64,000 nt of DNA, taken from the NCBI GenBank assembly GCA_022710975.1, contig JAKLGA010000008.1, forward strand, positions 124,001 through 188,000, given 5' to 3'. The position numbers and the translations under genes were made by a program. The notes beneath the pieces are model-generated. The model saw nothing but the letters and a program-made list of their open reading frames with translations, made no database searches and had not been told where the DNA came from. This document shows, one piece after another, positions 9,621 through 55,922 of this stretch (positions are counted from its first letter, which is position 1; each line of letters opens with the position of its first letter). This DNA comes from Myxococcota bacterium (lineage in GTDB: Bacteria; Myxococcota; B64-G9).

Positions 9621-10691
9621 ATGCAGGCGTCGACACGCCTCCAGATCGCGTCGCTCGCGCTCGCCGCCGTCCTGGCCAGCGCCGGGCCCGGGTGCCAGGG
9701 TGGCTCGGAGCCCGGGGACGGCGGACAGGACGCCGAGGCGGACGGACAGGGAGAAGACGGGCGGGACGAAGGCTCCGGGGCGGATGTCCCCGACGGCGGG
9801 GACGCCGAGGGGCTGTGGCCCTGGTGCCCGGACCCCTCGGCCTACGTCGGTGGGGGCTGGGACCACCTGGCCCGGGTGGACGACCAGGCCCTGTACTGCG
9901 TCCTCAACCAGGGCGCGACCGTGGAGGAGGACCTCGCGCTGAAGGCCCGGCTGCGCCTGGTGCCCGGCGCCTACCCCCTGCCCCGCGAAGGCCTGGAGGC
10001 CGCCTGCCTGCTGCCGGCCTGCCTCGAGCTCCCTGGCGGGGTGGGCTCGGAGCTCGCCGGCGAGGGCTGGCTGGCCGTCGCGGTCGAGCCCTCGGGCCAG
10101 GGGCAGCACCTGACCTGGCAGCTCGCGGAGCCACTGCAGGCTGGCGGCCGGCCGTGGTCCGTGGAGATCTCCGCCAGCATGTACACCTACTCCGCCGCGG
10201 CCGGCGTCCCGGAGCTCGTCCTGTCCAACCGGCTCACCCGCTACGAGGCCTGGGGCGAGCTGTACACCTCCCTGCGGCTCACCCACGCGGAGCTCCCCTA
10301 CCCATGGCAGCTCCTGCCCTGCCGGCCCGACACCGAGTCCCACCGCCAGGACCGGGCCACCTTCGACCGCGGCTGGATGGAGGTGTGGCACGACGTGGTG
10401 GACGACGTGCCCTCGGGGGGTGGGGCGCCGGCCGTGCTCGCGCGCGGCTTCGGGGAGCTCGACGGGGTGGCCTTCGACCAGCGCGACTACTTCAAGCTGG
10501 GCCACCTGATCGCCCACCACAACTGGGGCGGCACCTTCCTGGTCATGCTCGACACGCCGATCGGCCAGGCCTGCGGCCTGAAGCTGGCCATCCCCTCCCT
10601 GGACGGCGGCGGCCCGGACCCGGCCGCCTGGACCGTGGGCTGCGATCTGGCGCCCCTCGAGGAGCTCACCGGGCTGGTGACCGGGCCCTGA
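9621..10691 (+). CDS. Lipoprotein of unknown function
   Basis: A 356-residue exported protein. The ATG at 9621 follows GGAGGGAGG. The signal peptide (about residues 1-24) ends in SAGPGC, a likely lipobox, and is followed by an acidic Gly/Asp/Glu-rich spacer (27-60), the usual tether of lipoproteins in this group. The mature part has seven or more Cys, several in pairs, consistent with disulfides outside the cytoplasm, and alternating hydrophobic strands suggesting a beta-rich fold. I do not recognise a family. It is monocistronic, diverging from the FecR operon. Confidence 0.65.
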   Translation: MQASTRLQIASLALAAVLASAGPGCQGGSEPGDGGQDAEADGQGEDGRDEGSGADVPDGGDAEGLWPWCPDPSAYVGGGWDHLARVDDQALYCVLNQGATVEEDLALKARLRLVPGAYPLPREGLEAACLLPACLELPGGVGSELAGEGWLAVAVEPSGQGQHLTWQLAEPLQAGGRPWSVEISASMYTYSAAAGVPELVLSNRLTRYEAWGELYTSLRLTHAELPYPWQLLPCRPDTESHRQDRATFDRGWMEVWHDVVDDVPSGGGAPAVLARGFGELDGVAFDQRDYFKLGHLIAHHNWGGTFLVMLDTPIGQACGLKLAIPSLDGGGPDPAAWTVGCDLAPLEELTGLVTGP

Positions 10692-10737
10692 GGCGCGGCC
10701 CCGGCGGAACCCCGCCCGGACCGAGGCATCCAACGGT

Positions 10738-10765
10738 TTGATGCGCGGCCGGGTCGTAGTAGACT
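10738..10765 (+). promoter_or_regulatory. Promoter of the small TM protein / TldD operon
   Basis: TTGATG (10738-10743), a 16-base spacer and TAGACT (10760-10765). Transcription would begin near 10772, 27 bases before the GTG. Confidence 0.5.
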
Positions 10766-10798
10766 GCCCGCGGGCCGCGCGCCGCGCGAGGAGGGTCC

Positions 10799-10999
10799 GT
10801 GGGCGGAAGGCTGAAGGGCAGACGAGCCAAGGACAAGCAGACGCGGCCCTGGCCGGTGTTCAAGCTGGCGGTGTACGCGCTGCTGGCCATCACGGTGCTC
10901 GGGTTGCTCTACTGGTACTGGTTCTCCCAGGAAGGTCTGGAGAAGACCCGGGAGATCATGGAGTCCGACGCGAAACCGAAGACCGCCATCCCCGGCTGA
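10799..10999 (+). CDS. Small single-pass membrane protein
   Basis: A 66-residue protein beginning with GTG at 10799 after GAGGAGGG. Residues 1-18 are very basic, 19-43 form one strongly hydrophobic helix ending in aromatic residues (YWYWF), and a charged tail follows. The positive-inside rule puts the N-terminus in the cytoplasm. It sits 15 bases upstream of the exported TldD-like protease and is almost certainly co-transcribed; a partner or anchor for that protease is possible but unproven. Confidence 0.7.
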   Translation: MGGRLKGRRAKDKQTRPWPVFKLAVYALLAITVLGLLYWYWFSQEGLEKTREIMESDAKPKTAIPG

Positions 11000-11014
11000 C
11001 AGGAGATCCCCCAA

Positions 11015-12793
11015 ATGCACCACGCCCGCACGCCCACGCTTCGCTGCGCCCTGGCCTGCCTGCTGCTGCTCGGCTGCTTGCCGGGCCTGGTGTTCGCCGG
11101 ACCCAAGAACAAGACCAAGGCCGCCCCGGCCCCGTGCAAGGCCGAGGAGGACAAGCCGACCTTCGACCACCGGCCGGTGCTGCTCAAGGCCATGGAGGCC
11201 GAGCTCCAGCGCTCCATGTCCAGCCTCCGCATCGAGGGCTTCGAGGCCCCCTACTTCATGGCCTACGAGCTGGAGGAGACCCAGTCCAACCGCGTCCAGG
11301 CGCGCTCCGGCTCGCTCGACTCCGCCGGGGGCGGTAAGAACCGCCGGCTGCGGGTCGAGGTGCGGGTCGGCAACCACGAGCTGGACAACATGGGGCGCAA
11401 GGAGCAGGCCTTCGACTTCTCCTTCACGCCCGGCTACCGCGCGCCGCGGCACGGGCCGCTCGACGACGACGCGCTCGCGCTGCGCAACGCCTTCTGGCTG
11501 GTGACGGACGAGACCTACAAGGCCGCGCTCAAGTCCTACCTCAAGCTCAAGAGCGCCCGGGTGACCGAGGTGGAGGTGGATGAGTTCGCCGGCAGCTTCA
11601 CCAAGGAGAAGCCGGCCACCTACCAGGGCCCCGTGCTGCCCATCGAGTTCGATCGCGAGCGCTGGGAGCGCTTGGCCCGCACCGCCTCGGCCCGCTTCGA
11701 GAGCCACCCGGACATCTTCGATCACGCGGTCAGCGTGGACGGCTCCAAGCAGGTGCGCTACCTGGTGACCAGCGAGGGCACGCGCATCGTGGACGAGCTG
11801 GTGCTGTTCAACCTGAGCGTCACCGCCAACACGCGCGCCGAGGACGGCATGCTGCTGACCGATCAGCTGACGCTCTACTCCAAGGACGGCGCGGGCATGC
11901 CCGACGAGAAGAGCGTGCTCGCCAAGGTGGACCAGGTCATCACCGACCTGGAGGCCCTGCGCAAGGCCCCGGTGCTCGAGCCCTACACCGGGCCGTGCAT
12001 CCTGGACGGGGAGGCCACGGGCGTCCTGTTCCACGAGGTGATCGGCCACCGGCTGGAGGGCGAGCGCCAGCTCGACGACGAGGAGGGCAAGACCTTCAAG
12101 GGCCAGATCGGCAAGCAGATCATCCCCCCCTTCCTGTCGGTGATCGACGACCCCACCCTGCCCGCCATCGACGGCGTGGCCCTGAACGGCTTCTACCGCT
12201 TCGACGACGAGGGCGTGCCGGCCCAGCGCGCCGAGCTGATCGCCAAGGGCGTGCTCAAGAGCTTCCTGATGAGCCGGACCCCGCTCAAGGGCTTCCTGCA
12301 GTCCAACGGCCACGGGCGCTCCTCGGGCGGCGAGATGCCGCGGGCGCGCATGGGCAACACCCTGGTGGTGTCCGATCGCCAGGTGCCCTTCGCCCGGCTC
12401 AAGGAGATGCTGATCGAGGAGGTCAAGCGGCAGGGCAAGCCCTACGGCCTGATCCTCAAGAACATCGTGGGCGGTTCCACCCACACCTCGACCTGGGGCT
12501 ACCAGGCCTACAAGGGCACGCCGCAGATGGTCTACCGCGTGTTCCCCGACGGCCGCGAGGAGCTGGTGCGCGGGGTCGAGATCGTGGGCACGCCCATCGC
12601 CAGCATCAACAAGATCGTGGCCACCTCCGACCGCACCGCGACCTTCAACGGATTCTGCGGGGCCGAGAGCGGCTACGTGCCCGTGTCCACCTCGGCGCCG
12701 GACGTGCTGATGACCGAGATCGAGTTGCAGCGCGTGATGAAGCAGGGAGCCAAGCCGCCCCTGCTGTCCTCGCCCTGGAACGGACTCCACTGA
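11015..12793 (+). CDS. Exported TldD/PmbA-family metallopeptidase
   Basis: A 592-residue protein with a classical Sec signal peptide (residues 1-29, ending LVFAG; a Cys at about 21 might be an alternative lipidation site). The rest is a TldD-type peptidase. The zinc motif HEVIGH is at 340-345, followed by RLEGE as in TldD (HEAxGH.LEGD), and the C-terminal FCG...VPVSTSAP near 545-560 matches the TldD segment that supplies the Cys zinc ligand. Well-studied TldD/E complexes are cytosolic and process microcin B17 or unfolded peptides; an exported version would act in the periplasm. There is no adjacent TldE/PmbA partner. AGGAG 10 bases upstream supports the start. Confidence 0.85.
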   Translation: MHHARTPTLRCALACLLLLGCLPGLVFAGPKNKTKAAPAPCKAEEDKPTFDHRPVLLKAMEAELQRSMSSLRIEGFEAPYFMAYELEETQSNRVQARSGSLDSAGGGKNRRLRVEVRVGNHELDNMGRKEQAFDFSFTPGYRAPRHGPLDDDALALRNAFWLVTDETYKAALKSYLKLKSARVTEVEVDEFAGSFTKEKPATYQGPVLPIEFDRERWERLARTASARFESHPDIFDHAVSVDGSKQVRYLVTSEGTRIVDELVLFNLSVTANTRAEDGMLLTDQLTLYSKDGAGMPDEKSVLAKVDQVITDLEALRKAPVLEPYTGPCILDGEATGVLFHEVIGHRLEGERQLDDEEGKTFKGQIGKQIIPPFLSVIDDPTLPAIDGVALNGFYRFDDEGVPAQRAELIAKGVLKSFLMSRTPLKGFLQSNGHGRSSGGEMPRARMGNTLVVSDRQVPFARLKEMLIEEVKRQGKPYGLILKNIVGGSTHTSTWGYQAYKGTPQMVYRVFPDGREELVRGVEIVGTPIASINKIVATSDRTATFNGFCGAESGYVPVSTSAPDVLMTEIELQRVMKQGAKPPLLSSPWNGLH

Positions 12794-33105: not shown

Positions 33106-34977
33106 TCAGGCGGGGCCGTGCAGCCGGGCGGCCACGTCGGCCAGCTCTGCGGCCGCCAGGGTCTCGCGGGTCGGCCGGCCCTGCGCGTCCAGGCCGCGCA
33201 GCTCGTAGTACTCGCGCAACAGCTTCTGGGTGTCAGGCACCGAGCCGACCGCGCCGCCCTCGGCCGTGGGGGTGAGCACCTTGGCGGGCAGGCGATCGTC
33301 GGCGGCCGTGGCGCCCATCAGGTTGATCAGCGCGCGGCGGAGCAGCCAGATGCGGGCGCCGGCCTGCAGGTAGTCCTGGACGCTGAAGCCCCAGCCGGTG
33401 ACCGCGTTGAGCGCCTCCACCGGATCGCCAGCCTTGAATGTCCAGTTGTCGAACACGCACATGCACAGGGCCGCCAGGGGGGCCCCGTAGTCCTCGGCCA
33501 GCTTGACCGCGGCCGCCTTGCCCTCGTCCACCTGCCCCTGGTAGTCAGGCGCGAAGCCGAGCTCCGGCCAGCTCGCCATGCCTTGCTCCACCGGGTGCAT
33601 CAGGTGGGCGTTGTGGCAAGCCCCGCGGCTGGACATCATGTACGCCAGCCCCATGCCGTGGGAGCCGCGCGGATCGTGCATGGGCAGCTCCAGGCCCTTC
33701 ACCTCGGCGGTGAGCGCCTCGGCGCCGCGGCCGATGCGCCGGGCCGCCTCCCGGCTGCCCTCGGCCAGGAGGTCGCCCACGCCCTCGCGCAGGCCGATCT
33801 TGTGCACCAGCGCCAGGATGGCCTCGGCGTTGCCCCAGCCGAGCTCCAGGCCGTCCACCTCGTCCCGCGACAGGATGCCCTGTTCGACACAGTCGATGGC
33901 GAAGGCCACCGTGCAGCCGCCGGTGATGGTGTCGAAACCGTAGCGGTTGCACATCTCGTTGATCTTCAGCAGCGAGGCGGCGTCCGAGTTCATGCACAGC
34001 GCGCCGAACGAGGCGCAGGTCTCGTACTCCGGTCCCGGCCCGGTCTCGACCTGGTACGGGCCGGGCTCGTCGTTCTTCATCACCCGCCGGCAGGCGATCG
34101 GGCAGTGCAGGCAGGCGTCCGGCTTGACCAGGAAGCGCTCGGTCATGGTCGGCCCGCCGATGGCGGCCGAGACCTCCAGCGCCTCCCCCAGGCGGTAGTT
34201 CTTCAGCGGTACGTCCCCGATGATCATGCTCAGATCCATGGTCGAGTCGGTGCCCATCTGCTTCAGGCTCTCGGCCGGGACCGACTCCTTGATCTGCGCG
34301 AACAGGCGCAGGCGCAGCGCCTTGAGAGCCGCGGGGTCATGGGCCTCGAAGGGTTGGCTGCCGCGCACCACCATGGCCTTCAGGCGCTTGGCGCCCATGA
34401 CCGCGCCCATGCCGGTGCGGCCGGCGAAGTCGTGCTTGTCGTGGCACACGGCGGCGTAGCGCACCAGCCGCTCGCCGGCCTGCCCGATGCACAGGACCTT
34501 GGGCTCCCGCCCCGGGCCCAGGCTCGGCTTCAAGGCGTCCACGGTCTGGTAGGTGTCCAGGCCCCACAGCGCCCCGGCCGGACGCAGCTCCACCCTGCCG
34601 TCGTCCAGGCAGAGCACCACCGGCTCGGCCGCGCGGCCGCGGACGATCACCCCGTCCAGGCCGGCCGCGCGCATCTCCACGGCCAGGTTGCCGCCGCAGG
34701 AGCTCTCGCCCCACAGGCCGGTCAACGGCGAGCGGGCGCAGATGGAGAAGCGCGAGGAGCCGGGCACGCCCGAGCCGGCCAGCGGGCCGAGCATCACCAG
34801 CAGCGGGTTGTCCGGGCCCAGGGGGTCGACCCGGGGATCGGCCTCCTCGAAGAACAGGCGCGCGGCCATGCCCGCCCCGCCCAGGAAGCGCCGCCACAGC
34901 TCCTCGGGGATGCTCCGCCGCCGCGATGCGCCCGTGCCCAGATCGACTTCCAGGACTTGCCCCTTGAGGCCCTTCAT
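33106..34977 (-). CDS. aor: Tungsten-containing aldehyde:ferredoxin oxidoreductase
   Basis: A 623-residue enzyme oxidising aldehydes to carboxylic acids with ferredoxin as acceptor, using tungstopterin and one 4Fe-4S cluster. The cluster ligands are present: CLHCPIAC (Cys289, 292, 296) and Cys505/507 in LCMCVFDNW, close to the positions in Pyrococcus AOR (288, 291, 295, 494). The N-terminal domain starts MKGLKGQVLEVDLGTG as usual, and the length is normal. ATG 34977 has GGAGGAG upstream. No tungstate transporter, pterin gene or ferredoxin is nearby. It is monocistronic. Confidence 0.93.
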   Translation of the reverse strand: MKGLKGQVLEVDLGTGASRRRSIPEELWRRFLGGAGMAARLFFEEADPRVDPLGPDNPLLVMLGPLAGSGVPGSSRFSICARSPLTGLWGESSCGGNLAVEMRAAGLDGVIVRGRAAEPVVLCLDDGRVELRPAGALWGLDTYQTVDALKPSLGPGREPKVLCIGQAGERLVRYAAVCHDKHDFAGRTGMGAVMGAKRLKAMVVRGSQPFEAHDPAALKALRLRLFAQIKESVPAESLKQMGTDSTMDLSMIIGDVPLKNYRLGEALEVSAAIGGPTMTERFLVKPDACLHCPIACRRVMKNDEPGPYQVETGPGPEYETCASFGALCMNSDAASLLKINEMCNRYGFDTITGGCTVAFAIDCVEQGILSRDEVDGLELGWGNAEAILALVHKIGLREGVGDLLAEGSREAARRIGRGAEALTAEVKGLELPMHDPRGSHGMGLAYMMSSRGACHNAHLMHPVEQGMASWPELGFAPDYQGQVDEGKAAAVKLAEDYGAPLAALCMCVFDNWTFKAGDPVEALNAVTGWGFSVQDYLQAGARIWLLRRALINLMGATAADDRLPAKVLTPTAEGGAVGSVPDTQKLLREYYELRGLDAQGRPTRETLAAAELADVAARLHGPA

Positions 34978-38328: not shown

Positions 38329-41157
38329 ATGGACGGACTCATCGCGCTGCTGGTCTTGCTCTTGGTGGCCCTGGGCGCCGCGTTGGTCGTGCTGCCCATC
38401 GTGTCCACCGTGCTGGCGGTGCGGGCCAGGCGGGCAGCCCGGGACGCGCTGGCGTCGCTGGACCAGGTCGAGCATCGCCTGCGGGTGCTCGAGAAGGCCC
38501 AGCGGGGTGTGACCCTCCAGGCCCCGAAGGAGGAGGCGCGTCTCGCGCTCGCCGTCGAACAGCCCCCTGCCAGCCCTCCCTCGCCCGCGGTGGCGCCCGC
38601 CGCGCCCCAGGCGCCGGCGTCGCCGCCTTCCGCGGCCGCCCCGCCGGCGCCCGCACCCGCGGCCTCCCCTCCTCCGGCCTCCACCCTCGAGGCTCCTCCT
38701 CCTGCCCCGCGCCCTCCGGCTCCCCCGCCCCGGGGCGCGGCCAGGGCGCCCAGCACGCTGGAGGAGAAGATCGGCCTGGTGTGGCTGACCCGGCTCGGGG
38801 CCATCCTGGGCATCGCCGCAGCCGGCTGGTTCTTCAAGTACATGGTGGACAACGACTGGATCGGGCCCTGGGGCCGCGTGGCCCTGGGCGCGCTGGCCGG
38901 CGGCGGCCTGCTGGTGTGGAGCGAGCTCCTCGGCCGCAAGGGTCGCACCCATCCGGTGTTCGTCCAGGGGTTGATGGGCCTGGGCCTGGCGCTGCTGCTC
39001 GTCAGCGCCTACGCCTCCTTCGCCTTCTACCACCTGGTCCCGCTCGGGGTGGCCTTCGGGAGCGTGGTGGTGCTGAGCGCGCTCGGCGGCGCCCTGGCCT
39101 GGCGCCACCGCGCCGAGGCCATCCTGGGGCTGGCGCTGCTGGCGGCCCTGGCCAACCCGGTCATGCTGTCCACGGGTGTGGACCGGCCGCTGGCGCTGTT
39201 CTCCTACCTGCTGCTGGTCACCGGCGGGGCCCTGTTCGTGTGCGTGCGGCTCCAGTTCCGGCTGGCGCTCGCGGGCGCGGTGCTCGGGGTGATCGGCCTG
39301 TTCATCGGCTGGTACGCGACCTTCTTCGACCCCAGCCCCGCCTACGCCGGCGACGGCATCGACCTGCCCGCGGCCGAGCGCCAGGGCGCCTACTTCGGGC
39401 TCCTCGCCCGCGCGGCCCCGCTGGCCGCGTCCGCGCTATTCCCGCTCCTGTGGCTGCTGACCGCCTGGCGCCTGCGGGTCCGCGGCCAGCGCAAGCTGGG
39501 CCTGGCGCTGGCGCTCACCGCGCTCACCGCGGCGCACGCGGCGACCACCGCACTGCTCTACGACCACGCCGTGCTGCTGGCGGCGGTGATGTGCGCGCTC
39601 GCCCTCGGCTCGGCCGCGTTCCTCCTCTGGCAGAGGGCCACGGCCTGGCTCGGCGTGCCCATGGCGTTCTCCTTCCTGGTGCTGATGGGGCTGACCGACC
39701 AGGCCGAGGCCGGCCGCCTGCTGCCGCTGCTGTCGCTGGCGGGCACCTTGACCACGCTGTACGCGGGCGCGGTGGTGTGGACGGCCCGCCGCGAGGGCTG
39801 GCTGGCCAGCGGCAAGGCGCTGTGGCTGCTGGCCGGGGCCGGGCTGGGCCTGGCGCTGGTCGGCGGGCTGTACCTCGTCGAGCGCCACCCGGTGAGCTAC
39901 GCCTGGCTGGTAACGGGCCTGTCGGGCCTGCTGCTCGCCCTGGCCGTGTTCGCCCGCTCGGCCATCCTGCTGGGCTGCCTGCTGCCGGCCGCCCTGCTCG
40001 GCCTGGCGAGCGCGGCCGATCCGAGCGTGGTCGAGCCCGGGCTGATCGCGGCGGCCAGCGTGTGGTGCCTGCTGTACGTCGGGGCGATCGGCCTGGACCT
40101 GTTCGTCTTCGGCTCGCCCTGGACCCGCGCCCGGCAGGCGCTGCTCACCAGCGCCGGGGTGGGCTTCCTGGCCTTCGTCCTGCTGGCCACCCCCGAGACG
40201 GCCACGGCGCTCCGGGCCGGCCTGGCGCTGGGCACGGGGGTGCTGTACCTGCTGGTCGGGCTGCGCACGCGGGCCGAGGGCCTGGCCGTGGGCGAGGCCG
40301 CGCTGCTGCCGCTCGGCCTGGCGGTGGCCGCCTTCAGCCTGGCGTTGTCGATCCTGCTGGCCGGCCCCAGCCTGACCATCGCCTGGGCCGTGGAGGGCGC
40401 GCTGCTCGCCTGGCTGGCCGCGCGCGAGGCGCCTGCCCAGCCCGATCAGCCGCCCGGCCACCCGGCCTGGCTGATGGCCGCGTTGGCCGTGCTCACCCTG
40501 GCCGGCCTGCACCTGCTCAGCGTGGACCTGCCCTGGCTCGACGAGCAGTACTGGGTCTTCTGGAGCTCGGGGGGGCGCCAGGGGCTGCTGCTGGCCAGCC
40601 CGTTCGGCCACCCCCTGGCCTGGGCGCTGCTCGGGCTGGCCGTCGCCATGGGGGTCTCGGCCCGGGCGCTCGGCCGGGCGCGCGCGCGCGTCGCCTTCCG
40701 CCTGTCGGCCCTGGCCTGCGTGGTGCTCGCGCACCTCAGCCTGCTCGCGCTCGCCATCCACGAGACCCGCCTGGCGCTCTCCCCGGCCCCGGGCGCGCTG
40801 GCCGGCCTGCCGGCCGAGGAGCTGCACGCCGCCATCGGCCGCTGGCAGACCGTGGTGGAGGCGGCCTCCACGCGCCTGGACATGTCCACCACCCTGGTCC
40901 TCGGGCTGTACGCGCTCACCCTGCTGGGGCTGGGCTTCGGACTGCGCGACCGGCTGCACCGGCTGCTCGGCCTGGGCCTGTTCGGGGTGACGCTGCTGAA
41001 GCTCGGGCTGTACGACATCTGGTCGCTGGGCACGCTGTACCAGATCGCGGTCGGCGGCGGCCTGGCCGCCCTGCTGCTGACCGGCGCCTTCCTGTACGGC
41101 CGCTTCGCCGGCCGCATCCGCGAGCTGCTCACCGACGACGGAGGCGGAAAGCCATGA
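38329..41157 (+). CDS. DUF2339 polytopic membrane protein
   Basis: A 942-residue protein. An N-terminal helix (about 1-28) leads to a short coiled segment (about 30-62) and a Pro/Ala linker (80-143). The rest is almost entirely hydrophobic, more than 20 helices. The segment after the linker (EEKIGLVWLTRLGAILGIAAAGWFFKYMVDN, given in part) is the DUF2339 signature. The function of the family is not established; a role in envelope homeostasis has been suggested from context in other bacteria. Its stop overlaps the start of the DUF3999 gene (ATGA). Control by a sigma-54 promoter is suggested by the upstream sequence. Confidence 0.88.
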   Translation: MDGLIALLVLLLVALGAALVVLPIVSTVLAVRARRAARDALASLDQVEHRLRVLEKAQRGVTLQAPKEEARLALAVEQPPASPPSPAVAPAAPQAPASPPSAAAPPAPAPAASPPPASTLEAPPPAPRPPAPPPRGAARAPSTLEEKIGLVWLTRLGAILGIAAAGWFFKYMVDNDWIGPWGRVALGALAGGGLLVWSELLGRKGRTHPVFVQGLMGLGLALLLVSAYASFAFYHLVPLGVAFGSVVVLSALGGALAWRHRAEAILGLALLAALANPVMLSTGVDRPLALFSYLLLVTGGALFVCVRLQFRLALAGAVLGVIGLFIGWYATFFDPSPAYAGDGIDLPAAERQGAYFGLLARAAPLAASALFPLLWLLTAWRLRVRGQRKLGLALALTALTAAHAATTALLYDHAVLLAAVMCALALGSAAFLLWQRATAWLGVPMAFSFLVLMGLTDQAEAGRLLPLLSLAGTLTTLYAGAVVWTARREGWLASGKALWLLAGAGLGLALVGGLYLVERHPVSYAWLVTGLSGLLLALAVFARSAILLGCLLPAALLGLASAADPSVVEPGLIAAASVWCLLYVGAIGLDLFVFGSPWTRARQALLTSAGVGFLAFVLLATPETATALRAGLALGTGVLYLLVGLRTRAEGLAVGEAALLPLGLAVAAFSLALSILLAGPSLTIAWAVEGALLAWLAAREAPAQPDQPPGHPAWLMAALAVLTLAGLHLLSVDLPWLDEQYWVFWSSGGRQGLLLASPFGHPLAWALLGLAVAMGVSARALGRARARVAFRLSALACVVLAHLSLLALAIHETRLALSPAPGALAGLPAEELHAAIGRWQTVVEAASTRLDMSTTLVLGLYALTLLGLGFGLRDRLHRLLGLGLFGVTLLKLGLYDIWSLGTLYQIAVGGGLAALLLTGAFLYGRFAGRIRELLTDDGGGKP

Positions 41158-49060: not shown

Positions 49061-49140
49061 GCGTTCGAGTTTCTAGCCCCGCGTCGCTACGCGCCGCGGG
49101 ACAAGCAATTCTTCGCCCGGGGATTCGGGCTCGAATTGCT
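49061..49140. repeat. Dispersed intergenic element, copy A (double hairpin; likely terminator)
   Basis: GCGTTCGAG, then a GC hairpin (CCCGCG 49078-49083 with CGCGGG 49095-49100), then AAGCAATTCTTCGC. A second hairpin nests AGCAATTC/GAATTGCT (49104-49111, 49133-49140) around GCCCG/CGGGC. The same order is found in copy B at the right edge of the window. Here it ends at the stop of the nitrogenase-fold gene and may terminate it. Confidence 0.55.
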
Positions 49141-50392
49141 AGTGCACGCCCATCCAGGCGTCCAGCAGCCGCTGGGCCTGGGCCACGGCCCCGGCGTAGC
49201 CGAGCTCCGGCAGGGGGTAGATGTAGTGCTTGCGCCGGGCGGGGATGCCGGCCTCCACGGTGGGCAGGCCGGCCCAGCGCGAGTCGCCCAGCTCGAGATC
49301 CGGCCGGACCACGAGCTGGGGCAGTACCGCCGCGCCGTCCAGCGCGGCGCGGAGCGCGCCGAGCTCGGCGGGGGCGCCCAGGGCCAGCCCCTCGGGGCGC
49401 TTGTGACCGGCGGAGCCGAGCAGCTTGTCGAAGGCCGCCTCGCCGCCCTGGCTGCGGTCCAGGAGCAGGACCGGCCCCACGCACAGGCCGAGCTCGAGGG
49501 CCAGGCCGGTCCAGGCCGCGGCGCTGGCCGTGTCGGCCACGATGGCCAGCCGCTTGCCCGCCAGCGCACGCCGGGCAGTCTCCATACGCGGCCAGGCCTT
49601 CTTCTCCTCGCGCTCGAGCAGCCGCTGCACCAGCTCCGCGTCCAGGGCGAGCAGCCGGCCCATGGCCAGCAGCCAGCGGCTGGTGGCGGTCACCCCCAGC
49701 GGCAGGGGGCAGTCCAGCACCTTGCGGCGGGTGCGCTCGGCCATGGCGCGCGCGCTCGTGCCCGCGTAGGGCAGCCGCAGCAACAGATCCGAGCGGAAGG
49801 CCTGGAGCAGGGCCGGCAGGGGCTCGCCGGCCAGGAAGGAGGGGCCCATGGCGACCCCCAGGGCCTCGACCAGCCTGCGCAGCTCGCCCAGGTTGGCGAC
49901 CTGCTCCGCCTCGCGCCGGTGCACGAGCAGCCCGACCAGCGACAGCGTGTGCCGCTCGGCCACCGGCTCCTCCCAGCTCACCAGCTCCAGCAGGCTCCCC
50001 AGCGCGGCGCCGTACCCCGCCCACAGATCGGGCGCCTCCGCGGCCCCGGCCAGCAGCAGCGCGGGGCAGGTCGCATCCCTGCACAGCCTGGCCGCCAGCG
50101 CCTTGAGCGCCCGGCTCCCCTCGACCCGGGCGGTGGTGGCCACCAGGCGCAGCGCGGGTGCGCACCCGTCCACCGGCGGCGGGAGCGTCTTCGCGCCCAT
50201 CCCCAGGTTGCGCCAGCCCACCCGCGCCGTCCGCTCGCAGGTCCAGTCATGGGCGGCGAGGTCCGGCGGCGCCTGCCCGTCCGCGCCGACCAGGCAGACC
50301 TCCACCTCTCCGTCCAGCCCGCAGGCCGCCAGGTACACGCCCAGCGCCCCGCCCTGGCCCAGGGCCCCCGTCGCCGCCTGCTCGCCTGCCAT
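49139..50392 (-). CDS. Orphan nitrogenase component 1 (NifD/NifK)-fold protein without P-cluster cysteines
   Basis: A 417-residue soluble protein. Several blocks match the NifD/NifK/BchN superfamily: AGYGAALGSLLEL, a NLGELRRLVEALG segment, PLGVTATSRWLLAMGRLL (about 231-247), LAGKRLAIVADTASAAAWTGLALELGL, PDLELGDSRWAGLPTVEAGIPARR and a closing LGYAGAVAQAQRLL. In nitrogenases three Cys hold the P-cluster; here the corresponding spots read ATGALG, ADGQAP and TTARVEG, so no Cys. No partner subunit or NifH is present. Enzymatic role unknown. ATG 50392 has GAGG seven bases upstream; GTG 50419 is an alternative. It has its own promoter. Confidence 0.72.
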   Translation of the reverse strand: MAGEQAATGALGQGGALGVYLAACGLDGEVEVCLVGADGQAPPDLAAHDWTCERTARVGWRNLGMGAKTLPPPVDGCAPALRLVATTARVEGSRALKALAARLCRDATCPALLLAGAAEAPDLWAGYGAALGSLLELVSWEEPVAERHTLSLVGLLVHRREAEQVANLGELRRLVEALGVAMGPSFLAGEPLPALLQAFRSDLLLRLPYAGTSARAMAERTRRKVLDCPLPLGVTATSRWLLAMGRLLALDAELVQRLLEREEKKAWPRMETARRALAGKRLAIVADTASAAAWTGLALELGLCVGPVLLLDRSQGGEAAFDKLLGSAGHKRPEGLALGAPAELGALRAALDGAAVLPQLVVRPDLELGDSRWAGLPTVEAGIPARRKHYIYPLPELGYAGAVAQAQRLLDAWMGVH

Positions 50393-50445
50393 CACCAGAC
50401 CTCGCGCCACCGCACCCACCTCCGCCCCACCCCCGGGCGGGCGGC

Positions 50446-50546: not shown

Positions 50547-51155
50547 ATGGGACAGGTCAACGCCCGACGCTTCCCCACCGTGGCCCGCTACCTCGACCTG
50601 CACTGCGGCCGGCTGGACCGTCACCCCGGGTGCCAGGTCAAGACGGGCCTGCTACGCGACGTGATCGAGGGCCACCCGCTCGAGCGTGTCGAGCGGGATC
50701 TCCCGGCCGAGGTGGTGGAGCTGCTGCGCTCGCCCCCCCCGGTCAACGTGTGGATGCCCGAGATGCTCATCGAGGCGGTGCTGCAAGCCTGCGCCGACGA
50801 GCACTTCGCCAGCCAGGCGGAGGCCGAGGAGTGGGCCTTCCGGCACGACCTGGAACGCTTCCGGGGCCCGCTCTATCGCCTGCTGATGGTGCTGGCCAGG
50901 CCCGAGAGCATGCTGCGGGCTGCCAGCAAGCGCTGGGAGGCCTTCCACCGCGGCAGCAGCCTGGAGGTGGAGGTGCAGCCCAACCGGGTGGTGGGCACCC
51001 TGCGCTTCCCGCCCTGGCTGTACATGCCCGAGGCCAGGATCAACCTGGCCGGCCCTTTCCGCGCCGCGCTGGTCGCGGCCGGGGCCGAGGACGCCAGGGT
51101 CCTGCTGATCGAGGCCGGCGAACTGGTGCAACGCTACGAGGCCACCTGGAGCTGA
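50547..51155 (+). CDS. DUF2378-like (TIGR02265-type) protein
   Basis: A 202-residue soluble protein. The length, the pattern LPAEVVELLRSPPPVNVWMP, the segment LARPESMLRAASKRWEAFHRG and the closing block on a beta sheet (VEVQPNRVVGTLRFPPW) resemble the myxobacteria-restricted DUF2378 / TIGR02265 family, whose function is unknown. It is a tentative family call by eye. It has its own promoter and lies 13 bases ahead of the TraB-like gene, so the two are co-transcribed. Confidence 0.6.
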   Translation: MGQVNARRFPTVARYLDLHCGRLDRHPGCQVKTGLLRDVIEGHPLERVERDLPAEVVELLRSPPPVNVWMPEMLIEAVLQACADEHFASQAEAEEWAFRHDLERFRGPLYRLLMVLARPESMLRAASKRWEAFHRGSSLEVEVQPNRVVGTLRFPPWLYMPEARINLAGPFRAALVAAGAEDARVLLIEAGELVQRYEATWS

Positions 51156-51168
51156 GCTCCTCCGCCCG

Positions 51169-51816
51169 ATGCCACCCCCAGACCACCAGCTCACGCTCGT
51201 CGGCACGGTCCACCTGGATCCGGACGGCCCGGCGCTGCTGACCCGGCTGCTCGAGGAGCTCGGCCCGGAGGCGGTCACGGTCGAGGTGAGCGAGTACGCC
51301 CTGGAGTTCCGGCGCACGCTGGGCCCGGAGCTGCTCGCCCGGCTCGACCCCTTCCGCCTGCCCGACGGCCGGCTGCCCAACGGCCTGGCCGCGGTGGCGG
51401 CCCAGCTCCTGCCGCCCTTCGAGCACAGCGCGGCCGCGGCCTACGCCGGGCGGACAGGGGCCGCGCTCGCAGCGGTGGGCGACGGCCAGCTCTCGCGCCG
51501 GCTGCTCTTCCGCCTGGAGCGAGAGCTCATGGTGACCGACAACCTGGTGAAGCTCGCCACGCGCGACGAGCCGCCGCTGCGGGAGCAGGTGCGCACCGAG
51601 TGGCAGCGCGCCCGCGGCCACCACCGGGCAGGGCCGCCGCTCGGCTCGGACGCCGTGGCCCGCCTGGCCGGCATGGACCGGGGGCTGGCCCGGCGCATCC
51701 GGGCGCAGGCTGGCGCGGGTCGGCTGGTGCACGTGGGGGGCTGGGAGCACCTCAGGGGGCTGGCGGAGATCCTGGCCGATCTCGGGCCCATCGTGCGGCT
51801 GCTGAGTCCGGATTGA
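51169..51816 (+). CDS. Short TraB/PrgY-like protein
   Basis: A 215-residue soluble protein. LTLVGTVHLDPDGP near the start resembles the GTxH motif, TVEVSEYALEFRR the acidic motif and VHVGGWEHLRGLAEIL the C-terminal His motif of the TraB/PrgY (TIKI) fold. No membrane segment is present, unlike PrgY. In related families this fold supports metal-dependent peptide hydrolysis, but activity here is unknown. ATG 51169 follows the preceding stop by 13 bases. The nearest ribosome binding site (GGAG) partly overlaps the end of the upstream gene. Confidence 0.55.
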   Translation: MPPPDHQLTLVGTVHLDPDGPALLTRLLEELGPEAVTVEVSEYALEFRRTLGPELLARLDPFRLPDGRLPNGLAAVAAQLLPPFEHSAAAAYAGRTGAALAAVGDGQLSRRLLFRLERELMVTDNLVKLATRDEPPLREQVRTEWQRARGHHRAGPPLGSDAVARLAGMDRGLARRIRAQAGAGRLVHVGGWEHLRGLAEILADLGPIVRLLSPD

Positions 51817-51890
51817 GCGCTTCGTGCGGCGTGCGGCGTGCGACGTGCGAGCGCCGCACGCAGCACGCAGTTCGCCGCACGATCTCAATC
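51811..51890. terminator. 80-base palindromic terminator shared by convergent genes
   Basis: GATTGAG at 51811-51817 mirrors CTCAATC at 51884-51890; inside, CGTGCGGCG (51823-51831) mirrors CGCCGCACG (51873-51881), and TGCGGCG (51832-51838) mirrors CGCCGCA (51852-51858). Each outer arm includes the GATTGA that ends one of the two converging genes (Asp-stop in both). Confidence 0.6.
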
Positions 51891-53915
51891 CATCTTCGGC
51901 AGCTCGAGGGTGAGCAGGGTGTCCTTCTGGGCCATGAAGCGGCCCAGGAAGGCGCGCAGTTTGGTGTAGGCCCCGAGATCGATCAGCCGCTCGTTCACCG
52001 ACAGCTTGCGCGGGATAAGCAGGCTCTTGCCGTCTTCGCTGAGGCCGTAGGAGGTCTGCAGGCCGACCGCGGTGCCCTTCTCGAGATCCCGGGTGCGGAA
52101 GCCCTTGGGCAGCGCCTGGAGCAGGAAGCCCGCCGGCAGCGCCACCTGGATGTCGTACTCGTCGAGCCGCTTGAACGGGAAGCGCAGCGGGTTCACCCGC
52201 GTCTCGGTGTCGGGCTGGGGGCAGATGCCCCAGGGGCAGCCGCCCAGGCCCAGGAAGGCGCCGGCCTTGGCCACCATCTTGTCGCGCAGCACCTCGGCGT
52301 AGCGCGGCGCGTGGAACACGAGGCTCAGGGTGAGCGGTGTGTCCGGGGTGTCCAGCCCGCCGAACTCGAAGGAGTCCAGCTCGGCCCCCTGGGCCGCCGC
52401 GTTCACCAGCGAGCGCACCACCTCCTCGCGCTCCTGGGGCTTCTGCGGCACCAGCAGGCGCCGGAAGGCGTAGGCCATCTGGCCGACGAGCTCCACCTTG
52501 GCGGTGACCTTGGCCTGGCCCTCCATGCCCAGCTCGCCGCGCACCTCGATCCTGCGCCGGTTGTCGGCGGGGTTGCTGACGGGTAGGTCCTTGAGGGCGG
52601 CCGTGCCGCCCTTGATCCACAGCGACTTGCGGCCCTCGAAGGACCAGGGCAGGACGCCGAAGGGACACAAGCGGCTGGTCGGATCGATGAGCGCGCCGTC
52701 GGGCAGCGACAGCAGCACGTGGGTGAACTGCTCCATGGAGGGGATCTCCTCCAGGGCCGGGGGATCGTCCTCGGTGGTGGTCAGCACCAGGCCGGGTTCC
52801 ACGCCCACCGACAGCATCATCACGTACATGAGGTTGGCCGCCTCCTCGGGGGTGGCGGTCTTCTCCTTGAGCAGCTTGTCGATGTCGACCGTCTCGACCT
52901 CCATCTCGCGCGGCACGCCCGTGAGCCGGCCATACTCCTGCACGTTCAGGTTGGCCTTGACCCAGTCGTGGATGGCCTTGGCCCGGGCGCGCGGGTCGCT
53001 CTGGCCGGCGATGGCCTGGTCCGCGAGCTCCTTGGCCTTGGCCGGCGGCCGGCCGTAGTGGCCGAACCACTTGGCGTACACCTCGCCCAGCTCCGACCAG
53101 GCGTAGCGCCGGCCGAACCACTGCACCCCCACGTAGGAGGCGAGATCCACCGCGGGCGGCATGCCCTCCTCCTCCTGGATGGCGGGCACATTCCGGGCGG
53201 TCCACACGTCGAAGATGGCCTGCTGGCTCACCCCCACGCGGCCCGACAGGCCGGTGGCCATGCCCTTCTCCTCGGTCGCCTGGATGTCGAGGTTGTGGCG
53301 GTTGACCAGCACGGGCTGGATCTCCACCCGGAAGGGCGGCCGGGCCATCATGAAGCGCGAGTACATCACCGGCGCGTCCACCTTGTTGAACAGCCAGGAG
53401 GTCTCGGGGCCGCGCTGGGTGTACTGGTAGCCGATCACGTCCCCGGCTTCCAGGCCGGGGAAGATGATGGCGGTCTCGAGGAGGTCGATGGGCTGGTTCG
53501 AGCTCGGCGCCGCGTCCTTGACCAGCACGGTCTTGATGAAGTCCGAGGGCTTGAGCTCCACGCGCTTGCCGTCCGGCTTCTGCACGTAGGCCTGGATGGC
53601 GATCAGCTCACCCATGTGGCGCAGCACCACGTTGCCGTAGCGGTAGCCCTCGGTGGCGGCCCGGTCGAGCAGCTTGAGCTTCACGTAGCGGGTGAAGGCG
53701 TAGAAACGGCCCCGGCTGGTGTCGATGTCCACCGGGTCGAAGTGCACCTGGCCGATGTCGTAGAAGTACACCGCGTGGGCGTTCTTGGTGAGCGCCTCCG
53801 GGACGGTGGCGGCCTCCACCTCGGGCGGGATGACCACCAGGTCCGCGGTCTCGGCGCAGCCGGCGAGCGCCGCCGCGGCCAGCAGGACGGTCCAGGGGTT
53901 GCGACGGGATGCCAT
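51885..53915 (-). CDS. DUF3857/transglutaminase-like lipoprotein, catalytic Cys lost
   Basis: A 676-residue lipoprotein (lipobox AALAGC). Residues about 40-245 are a DUF3857 domain, about 295-420 a transglutaminase-like core and the rest a beta-rich C-terminal domain. At the usual catalytic GDCxxxA position it reads TPEEAANLMYVMML, without Cys, while the His (FTHVLLSL) and Asp (ALIDPTS) positions remain. It is probably a non-catalytic scaffold. The neighbouring paralog has the full triad. AGGAGG precedes ATG 53915. Last gene of a three-gene operon. Function of the family is unknown. Confidence 0.8.
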   Translation of the reverse strand: MASRRNPWTVLLAAAALAGCAETADLVVIPPEVEAATVPEALTKNAHAVYFYDIGQVHFDPVDIDTSRGRFYAFTRYVKLKLLDRAATEGYRYGNVVLRHMGELIAIQAYVQKPDGKRVELKPSDFIKTVLVKDAAPSSNQPIDLLETAIIFPGLEAGDVIGYQYTQRGPETSWLFNKVDAPVMYSRFMMARPPFRVEIQPVLVNRHNLDIQATEEKGMATGLSGRVGVSQQAIFDVWTARNVPAIQEEEGMPPAVDLASYVGVQWFGRRYAWSELGEVYAKWFGHYGRPPAKAKELADQAIAGQSDPRARAKAIHDWVKANLNVQEYGRLTGVPREMEVETVDIDKLLKEKTATPEEAANLMYVMMLSVGVEPGLVLTTTEDDPPALEEIPSMEQFTHVLLSLPDGALIDPTSRLCPFGVLPWSFEGRKSLWIKGGTAALKDLPVSNPADNRRRIEVRGELGMEGQAKVTAKVELVGQMAYAFRRLLVPQKPQEREEVVRSLVNAAAQGAELDSFEFGGLDTPDTPLTLSLVFHAPRYAEVLRDKMVAKAGAFLGLGGCPWGICPQPDTETRVNPLRFPFKRLDEYDIQVALPAGFLLQALPKGFRTRDLEKGTAVGLQTSYGLSEDGKSLLIPRKLSVNERLIDLGAYTKLRAFLGRFMAQKDTLLTLELPKMD

Positions 53916-53924
53916 GGCTTCCTC

Positions 53925-55922
53925 CTAGCGGGCCGCGCCGACCTTGGCGCCCTTCTGCTTGGCCGGCTCGAACAGCACCACGAACTTGCTGGCGTCCTGG
54001 GCCTTGAGGAAGGCCTCGCGCGCGCTCAGGTACTTGTCGGCCGGGATGATCAGCATCTTGACCACCAGCTTGTACTCGGTCACCAGGCGGTCGTTCTCGA
54101 TCTGGCTCAGGCGCTCGAGCTTCAGGAACTCGCTGTCCAGCATGACGTTCCTGGGCAGGCCGGCCGGTTGCATGCCGGCCGGGATCTGCACCTCGAAGCG
54201 TGTCTCGTAGGTACGCAGAAAATCGAGATCCAGGGCGTAGCGCCGCTTGGGCAGGTTGAAGTAGCCAAAGGTGCCGATGCCCAGAGGCTGGCGCACTTCG
54301 AAGGTGAGCCCGGTCCCGCTGGATTGCATGGCCTTCGGGAGTGAGGCCTTGAGGCGCACACCCATGGGGAGCTCGTTGTCCTCCCGGCCGGAGATGGACT
54401 GCTCCAGCAGGCTGGCGCCGGGGTAGGTCTCGGACAGCATGCCCTCCAACCATTGTTTGACCTGGTCGGTGGTCATTTCGAAGGCGCCCGCCCGGAACCG
54501 GCCGGCGAAGTTGCCGGTGCTCCTCATGTCGAGCTCCAGGCTCATGGCCCCCTCGGCCGCCGGGGTGAACGAGACCTTCGTCTCGCTCACGTTCGCCTCG
54601 GGAGGTTGCACCGGGACCTTGTCCAGGAAGGGCGCGCCGGGCCGGGCCACCACCACGTCCACGCCCTGGTCCGCGTCCGGAATGGTGGCGTGATCGAAGG
54701 TTCGGGTCGTGGCGTCCATCCAGTACACCTTGCCGTCGGCCTCGACCCGGGCGATGGAGTGGTTGAACTGGAAAGGCCCCGGCAAGTCCAGGTCGACTGC
54801 GCCCCTCTCGGACCGGGTGCCGATGATGACCGGATCGGCCTTCAGCCCGACCGCCCGGCACAGCACCGAGATCAGACCGGCCACGGCCTTGCAGTCGCCG
54901 TACTTCTTGTCGCACACCACGTGGGCCGAGAGCGGGATCAAGCCCTGCAAGCCACGCGAGAGCGCCACGTAGCGAACGTTCTTGTTCAGGTACTGCCAGA
55001 CTGCTTTGAGCTTCTCCGTTTCGGTGGTGGCCTTCGCCGCGATCTCATCCGCGACCGCCTTGACGATCGGGGTGATCTCCTGTTGCTTGACCAGCATCTC
55101 CTGCCAGCAGGTGCCCAGGTCCTCCCAGGTCTTGATCTTGCGGCAGGTCGGGAACTCCCCATAGGCGGACAGGTTCTCGTTCACCACCATCAGCTTGGCC
55201 TGCACGTCATCCGGAGCGACCATGCCGGGTTCAGGAATGATCGGGGCCATCTCGCGGGCGGTCCAGGTGCGCCGCAGCCGGTTGCCGACCTTCTCCTCGG
55301 TGGGCTGGATGTCGGCGTTGGAGACCTTCCAGCGGTAAGGGTAGTCCGCCGGGGCGTCCACCGTGAAGGTCATCTCCAGGACCGGATCCAGATCCTGGAA
55401 GAACATGTATCCCACGATCATGATCTTGGTGGAGCGGATGCGCCACCTCTCCTCGAAGATCGAGCCCGGGGTTGCGCCTTTCACCGACCACACGAAGCAG
55501 CGCAAGTCTGAATCGGGCTGATTCCAGGTGGTGAAGGTGCGGTCGACCATCTCGTCCCTGGGGACCGGGATCACCTCGCCCTCGGGGGTGATGGTGCGGG
55601 CCTCCAGCAGCTCGATCTTGTCAAAGGTCTCGTTGTAGCACACGTGGCGCTGGGTCTTGCAGTTGGGGGCCTCGGGCCCGCAGTCGAGGGCCTTGCGGTC
55701 CAGGATCTTGATACGCCGAAAACCTTCCTGGACCAAGGACTCGCCTTGGTCGTCCACCGTGCTCACGGCGCGGTCCTCGAGCACCACGGCCACCGCGCCC
55801 TCGAAGCGGGTCGGGGTCACGCTCTGGTACTGCTCGATGACCGCCTTGCCGCTCGTCGCGCACCCGGCCACGAGCCCGCCCAGGACCGCCACGCCCACCG
55901 CGACCCGGATCATCCTCGCCAT
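53925..55922 (-). CDS. DUF3857/transglutaminase-like lipoprotein, intact triad
   Basis: A 665-residue lipoprotein (lipobox LVAGC). It has the same architecture as its neighbour: DUF3857 (about 40-240), transglutaminase-like core (about 285-430), beta-rich C-terminal domain. The catalytic Cys is in KKYGDCKAVAGLISVLCRAVGL (in part), the His in FNHSIARV, and the Asp in YWMDATT, so it could be a cysteine protease or acyl transferase. Ten bases separate its stop from the next start, so they are co-transcribed. Six extra Cys in the N-terminal domain suggest disulfides. Confidence 0.82.
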   Translation of the reverse strand: MARMIRVAVGVAVLGGLVAGCATSGKAVIEQYQSVTPTRFEGAVAVVLEDRAVSTVDDQGESLVQEGFRRIKILDRKALDCGPEAPNCKTQRHVCYNETFDKIELLEARTITPEGEVIPVPRDEMVDRTFTTWNQPDSDLRCFVWSVKGATPGSIFEERWRIRSTKIMIVGYMFFQDLDPVLEMTFTVDAPADYPYRWKVSNADIQPTEEKVGNRLRRTWTAREMAPIIPEPGMVAPDDVQAKLMVVNENLSAYGEFPTCRKIKTWEDLGTCWQEMLVKQQEITPIVKAVADEIAAKATTETEKLKAVWQYLNKNVRYVALSRGLQGLIPLSAHVVCDKKYGDCKAVAGLISVLCRAVGLKADPVIIGTRSERGAVDLDLPGPFQFNHSIARVEADGKVYWMDATTRTFDHATIPDADQGVDVVVARPGAPFLDKVPVQPPEANVSETKVSFTPAAEGAMSLELDMRSTGNFAGRFRAGAFEMTTDQVKQWLEGMLSETYPGASLLEQSISGREDNELPMGVRLKASLPKAMQSSGTGLTFEVRQPLGIGTFGYFNLPKRRYALDLDFLRTYETRFEVQIPAGMQPAGLPRNVMLDSEFLKLERLSQIENDRLVTEYKLVVKMLIIPADKYLSAREAFLKAQDASKFVVLFEPAKQKGAKVGAAR

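Follow-up and report, generated by a model that had tools for sequence, protein, structure and literature searches.

The 64,000 nucleotides analysed here (hereafter the window; C28:124001-188000 of genome G000, an assembly of 7.13 Mb in 29 contigs) encode a protein, P0002, which a first-pass annotation had described as an orphan nitrogenase-fold protein lacking the P-cluster cysteines. The locus raises the question of whether such a protein really stands alone, where it came from, and what it could do without a cluster. The reading frame of P0002 lies on the minus strand, contains no internal stops and encodes 417 residues from ATG 50392, with a GC content by codon position of 0.81/0.54/0.97. 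The GTG at 50410 would add six residues (MARGLV) ahead of this ATG and, with the better-placed GGAGG, may be the real start (Table 1).

The family and fold of P0002 were analyzed by profile search and structure prediction. P0002 matched PF00148 (Oxidored_nitro) with an E-value of 1.2e-23 and a score of 84.1 bits (cut-off 28.6), and the motifs GVTATSRW, LAGKRLAIVAD and LGYAGA, read earlier as NifD/K landmarks, were all present in the translation letter for letter. The NCBIfam equivalog profiles (NifD/K/E/N, BchN/B/Y/Z and CfbD) all stayed far under their cut-offs, the best being BchN with 33.3 bits versus 324. The AlphaFold model, built on a 15-sequence alignment, had a mean pLDDT of 86.9 and a pTM of 0.90 and showed three Rossmann-like domains; its best Foldseek matches among solved structures were K-type chains, from NifK, AnfK, MarK, NifN and BchB (E 1e-15 to 1e-12, TM about 0.7-0.77). 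The fold of P0002 and its membership in the nitrogenase component-1 superfamily, as the first-pass annotation had proposed, are settled.

The same annotation had found no NifH-type reductase, partner subunit or cofactor gene nearby, and we likewise found no NifH, no second PF00148 gene and no radical-SAM-motif gene within the window. That P0002 stands alone in its genome did not hold up. Whole-genome search ruled out a lone protein without relatives: G000 holds five PF00148 loci, four of them clustered on contig C26, where a protein 58% identical to P0002 over its full length (A_G000) is encoded with a partner B, a second pair C/D, a NifH-like protein H and radical-SAM genes, with more radical-SAM motifs upstream. 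The D-type partner and NifH-type reductase occur in this genome only there, beside A, and the whole-genome PF00148 search revealed no nif genes.

A maximum-likelihood tree was built with NifDKEN and BchNBYZ references from Rhodomicrobium, whose eight names were assigned by sequence reading and gene order rather than by profile search. B and C grouped with NifD/NifE, while A, D and P0002 fell on the NifK/NifN and BchB/BchZ side, which also received the long BchN and BchY branches, flagged as unsure by the program. P0002 was monophyletic with the A proteins (support 100/99 in the full tree and 100/100 in the tree without the cluster segment). It shares with A the three-domain fold, the HDW motif and C109; however, A has a GVGC cluster site, an intact N-terminal domain and B alongside, whereas P0002 has GADG, deletions and no nearby partner. 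These results identify P0002 as a duplicate of the NifK/NifN-type subunit A of the C26 system. A-type proteins were found in only 5 of 195 genomes of the phylum (scores above 560 bits), and D-type proteins were commoner.

Judged by gene content and tree, the parent system has one reductase for two DK-like pairs (C/D and B/A), an arrangement reminiscent of NifDK plus NifEN. In G020, of the same phylum, A-B-D-C-H lie in a single run (L032). We found no description of a two-pair, radical-SAM-linked system of this type in the open-access literature searched, and the parent system is at least as interesting as P0002 itself. Nitrogenase-like loci that each combine 2-6 radical-SAM genes and a NifH-like reductase with one DK-like pair or two (L041, which is G000:C26:148500-162000, and L032, L033, L034, L035, L036, L037, L039 and L040) are present in most genomes of the host family of P0002 and in a few others of the phylum, and are apparently undescribed. 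Genome G001 (L037 and L038; contigs C10 and C47) has three H/C/D-like sets, of which C10 carries two next to each other. The C subunits (L041:5253-7340, plus strand) carry an N-terminal extension before the nitrogenase fold, with PF00148 starting at about residue 321 of 696 in C_G000. C26 also carries a carbamoyltransferase gene (Carbam_trans_N, _C; L029:7285-9123, minus strand), roughly 4 kb away from A.

Table 1. Positions of P0002, its sequence features and related loci. Plain numbers are window positions; L041 and L031 are loci on C26 of G000 and C279 of G006.
Feature	Position	Strand	Basis or remark
P0002 coding sequence, stop included	49139..50392	-	Cys-less K-type nitrogenase-fold protein, 417 aa
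Candidate true start of P0002, GTG at 50410 with GGAGG (50423-50419) 8 nt upstream	50408..50423	-	read by eye
TATACT, -10-like hexamer upstream of P0002	50446..50451	-	putative, consensus reading only
Residues 36-39 (GADG), site of the single K-side cluster Cys	50276..50287	-	alignment
Residues 48-50 (HDW)	50243..50251	-	alignment of A and D proteins
Residues 26-125, eroded cluster segment	50018..50317	-	identity, deletions, models
Residues 126-417 (domains II-III), conserved and under constraint	49142..50017	-	identity, dN/dS
MFS transporter, neighbour of P0002	47604..49001	-	probably outside the system; kept in four relatives
Radical-SAM gene, C26	L041:1707-2657	-	gene calling and family search
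A, C26	L041:2692-3990	-	gene calling and family search
B, C26	L041:3990-5228	-	gene calling and family search
C, 696 aa, C26	L041:5253-7340	+	divergent from A/B
D, C26	L041:7340-8662	+	gene calling and family search
H, NifH-like, C26	L041:8752-9597	+	gene calling and family search
Two radical-SAM genes, C26	L041:9605-10546 and 10592-11521	+	gene calling and family search
Radical-SAM part with lone Cys-less A-type gene, G006	L031:1-11607 (G006:C279)

To determine which cysteines P0002 has lost, we used an alignment with the Rhodomicrobium NifD/K/E/N and BchN/B proteins. P0002 has no Cys at any of the three P-cluster positions, as had been read before, but to call three of them lacking was an overstatement. 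In the subunit family of P0002, Cys occurs at the middle position alone, and cluster-bearing relatives, too, have other residues at the first and third; therefore, one Cys was lost and not three. Subunits A and D have just one cluster Cys, at the NifK Cys95/NifN Cys44 column, and subunit B has Cys at all three classical columns. Subunit C has Cys at two, its first column being unsure because of the long N-terminal extension. The layout of B/A is 3+1, as in the NifEN O-cluster, whose ligands are NifE Cys37, 62 and 124 and NifN Cys44 (PMC13031127). The B subunits (L041:3990-5228, minus strand, and those of G005, G008 and G020) have an extra Cys between the second and third classical cluster Cys (FFCTHL/FLCTNL/FYCTNL) that is absent in the other aligned subunits.

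The site that reads GADG in P0002 is GVGC in A and GPNC or GPDC in D, and its column is Cys in all A, D and nitrogenase proteins covering it except P0002 and A_G006 (CRGPAS); the BchB reference has Asp. With GADG here and no Cys at the other two columns, P0002 presents no Cys and no clearly placed Asp as a ligand for an interfacial Fe-S cluster; its Asp38, which might stand in for the Cys, adjoins the old Cys position, within one or two residues, and a two-residue gap in the alignment leaves its register unsure. A shifted cluster site formed by Cys24, 33, 52, 77, 104 or 109 was also considered and rejected. Among the candidates named in the first-pass annotation, Cys24 also occurs in the Cys-bearing A_G000 and Cys109 in every A protein without exception, while Cys52 and Cys104, like the remaining two, did not show up at any known cluster column. 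H48 and D49 are invariant in all 15 aligned A and D proteins, including both Cys-less ones. These results show that P0002 lost the one cluster Cys of the K side.

The loss of this Cys is accompanied by regional erosion. Identity to A is low up to residue 100 and the segment has in-frame deletions, whereas residues 97-417 are 64.5% identical to A. Compared with A_G000, residues 1-96 gave a dN of 0.736 and a dS of 0.81 (dN/dS about 0.9), and the part beyond residue 96 gave 0.297 and 0.63 (about 0.47); these are simple NG86 counts, and at so high a GC3 the ratio tends upward. The partnered A proteins follow the opposite trend, with the N-terminal part more conserved. With dS high in the two parts alike, their contrast is not accounted for by recent gene conversion, which is also not favoured as the source of the conserved C-terminal part. 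The model of A_G000 (pLDDT 88.5) shows one helix (43-53) immediately following the cluster Cys and another at 78-92; in the model of P0002 the first is down to 45-48, with pLDDT below 50 over residues 44-54, and the second is missing. These results show that erosion is selective around the old Cys, that constraint is kept on domains II-III and that the gene is otherwise intact.

The surroundings of P0002 offer little that would serve as a partner. Orthologues of the neighbouring MFS gene were found in four relatives, none beside a P0002 homologue, and this gene was rejected as a functional partner. Together with the genes at 38329, 42501 and 46033 it forms a neighbourhood kept in G007 and G004 without P0002, and in G008 and G006 it has other neighbours. 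P0002 looks like a copy placed into an older locus, where no partner is suggested. Two short genes of 202 and 215 aa without a Pfam match (50547-51816, plus strand) are divergent from P0002, and no homologues of them were seen at the MFS locus of G007, G004, G008 or G006. The window also encodes an aldehyde ferredoxin oxidoreductase of the tungsten-enzyme family (AFOR_N, AFOR_C; 33106-34977, minus strand) and two adjoining DUF3857 and transglutaminase-core proteins (51885-55922, minus strand).

We found one further Cys-less relative, A_G006, in a genome of the same family as G000 and a different genus. G006 (97% complete) has this single PF00148 protein, no true NifH, and none of B, C, D and H. 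The A_G006 gene has a one-base overlap with the next gene, a B12-type radical-SAM fusion that shares 42% identity with its counterpart next to B and A in G008, and orthologues of radical-SAM 1, 2 and 3 are present at 62, 57 and 53% identity. Upstream of radical-SAM 1, G000 has H, D and C, whereas G006 has another radical-SAM gene at this place; deletion is therefore favoured over an assembly gap. A foreign origin of contig C279 was not indicated, as its GC is 0.565 versus 0.567-0.592 on the other readable contigs (assembly contamination 6%). In G003 there is no PF00148 protein and radical-SAM 1 is missing as well. G006 therefore lost the reductase but retained the radical-SAM part together with a Cys-less A-type protein.

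The relation between the two Cys-less proteins was assessed on the tree. P0002 paired with A_G000 with support of 90/87 in the full tree and 73/59 without the cluster segment. In AU tests on the latter, pairing of P0002 with A_G006 was not rejected (p-AU 0.34), while pairing of A_G000 with A_G006 was (p 0.028). Shared-derived patterns were split, with 17 for P0002 with A_G000, 13 for P0002 with A_G006 and 2 for the third pairing, and at four columns invariant in partnered A proteins P0002 and A_G006 have the same new residue (L150, V175, I284 and A289). Whether the Cys was lost once, in an old paralogue, or twice in parallel, either outcome would be of interest.

Compared with characterized systems, P0002 resembles several K-type proteins and coincides with none. 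It shares the fold of NifN (chains 9i0f_B and 3pdi_B), and the parent pair B/A repeats the three NifE cysteines plus NifN Cys44 of NifEN (PMC13031127), but P0002 has no equivalent of Cys44. BchB, of the dark-operative protochlorophyllide reductase, shares with it the K-type side of the tree, the fold and the absence of Cys at the site, where BchB has Asp instead; unlike BchB, which partners with BchN and BchL, P0002 has an Asp not clearly in register and an eroded surrounding helix. MarK and IsrK are Group IV nitrogenase-like subunits paired with radical-SAM enzymes (PMC11423573). The parent system also combines nitrogenase-like and radical-SAM proteins, and MarDK chains (9d9u) are among the best fold matches of P0002; however, the parent system contains two DK-like pairs along with several HxsC/MoaA-like radical-SAM genes, and P0002 itself is unpartnered and predicted to be cluster-free.

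We tentatively propose, with confidence that falls somewhat short of calling it probable, that P0002 is a cluster-free duplicate of A serving as a non-redox binding/carrier or scaffold protein of the radical-SAM pathway. P0002 would be unable to complete the interfacial [4Fe-4S] site with B and unable to take electrons from H, while its conserved domains and His48-Asp49 would bind a substrate, product or intermediate of the pathway. G006 would be the model case, with its Cys-less A-type protein kept in an operon with the B12-type radical-SAM enzyme without B, C, D and H. Against this counts that P0002 occurs in one genome only, away from radical-SAM genes, that the tree without the cluster segment pairs it with A_G000 rather than with A_G006, and that family-like constraint on it is weakly supported. 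Of the earlier suggestion of a non-redox, single-subunit protein, the non-redox part is probably right, as the cluster Cys is gone; "orphan" is true of the neighbourhood only. More broadly, and with greater doubt, the Cys-less A proteins may be a branch of the nitrogenase family that has been retained as single subunits and acts together with radical-SAM enzymes, needing no reductase, partner or cluster.

The chief alternatives are that P0002 is decaying or that it is still a subunit. We consider it unlikely that P0002 is the relic of a copied A gene whose frame is not yet lost, even though it occurs in a single genome, is inserted among genes that are conserved elsewhere in its absence, and has an N-terminal dN/dS of about 0.9. 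In a simple neutral simulation the frame stayed stop-free in 7-12% of draws, and in the ancestry-corrected test family-like constraint on the whole protein was weakly supported (p 0.03-0.08 overall, residues 126-417 alone not significant). The contrast between the two parts of P0002 at similar dS, with constraint concentrated in domains II-III, is a better argument against decay than this test. The whole-codon N-terminal gaps relative to A, the GC3 of 0.97, the ribosome-binding-site-like GGAGG, the confident model and the second Cys-less protein of the A clade kept in another genus also speak against decay.

P0002 could also be an alternative or regulatory K subunit that pairs with B, or with A via the K-K face, to give a slower, altered or inhibitory complex, in which Asp38 might take over as ligand, the role that Asp has in BchB. 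The genome also encodes B and H, domains II-III are conserved, and an Asp lies near the lost Cys; but the eroded segment is the part that would face B and the cluster, the register of Asp38 is unsure, and G006, with the Cys-less relative, has no B or H at all, so we regard this as rather improbable. Far less credible is a classical single-subunit enzyme, a CfbD-like homomer with an unlinked NifH: CfbD does function without a K subunit (PMC11423573) and H is encoded elsewhere in the genome, but P0002 is K-type and without the cluster Cys, and its sister gene A has a B partner.

To our knowledge, characterized nitrogenase-family component-1 proteins are redox proteins with an interfacial iron-sulfur cluster. 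If the proposed reading of P0002 and A_G006 as retained cluster-free proteins is true, the nitrogenase fold would here do no more than bind a small molecule or act as a scaffold, and A_G006 would be the only nitrogenase-family component-1 protein of its genome. A member retained without any cluster ligand would demonstrate that this fold can persist for a different purpose. It would also be a natural experiment for telling the surfaces used in binding from those used in electron transfer.
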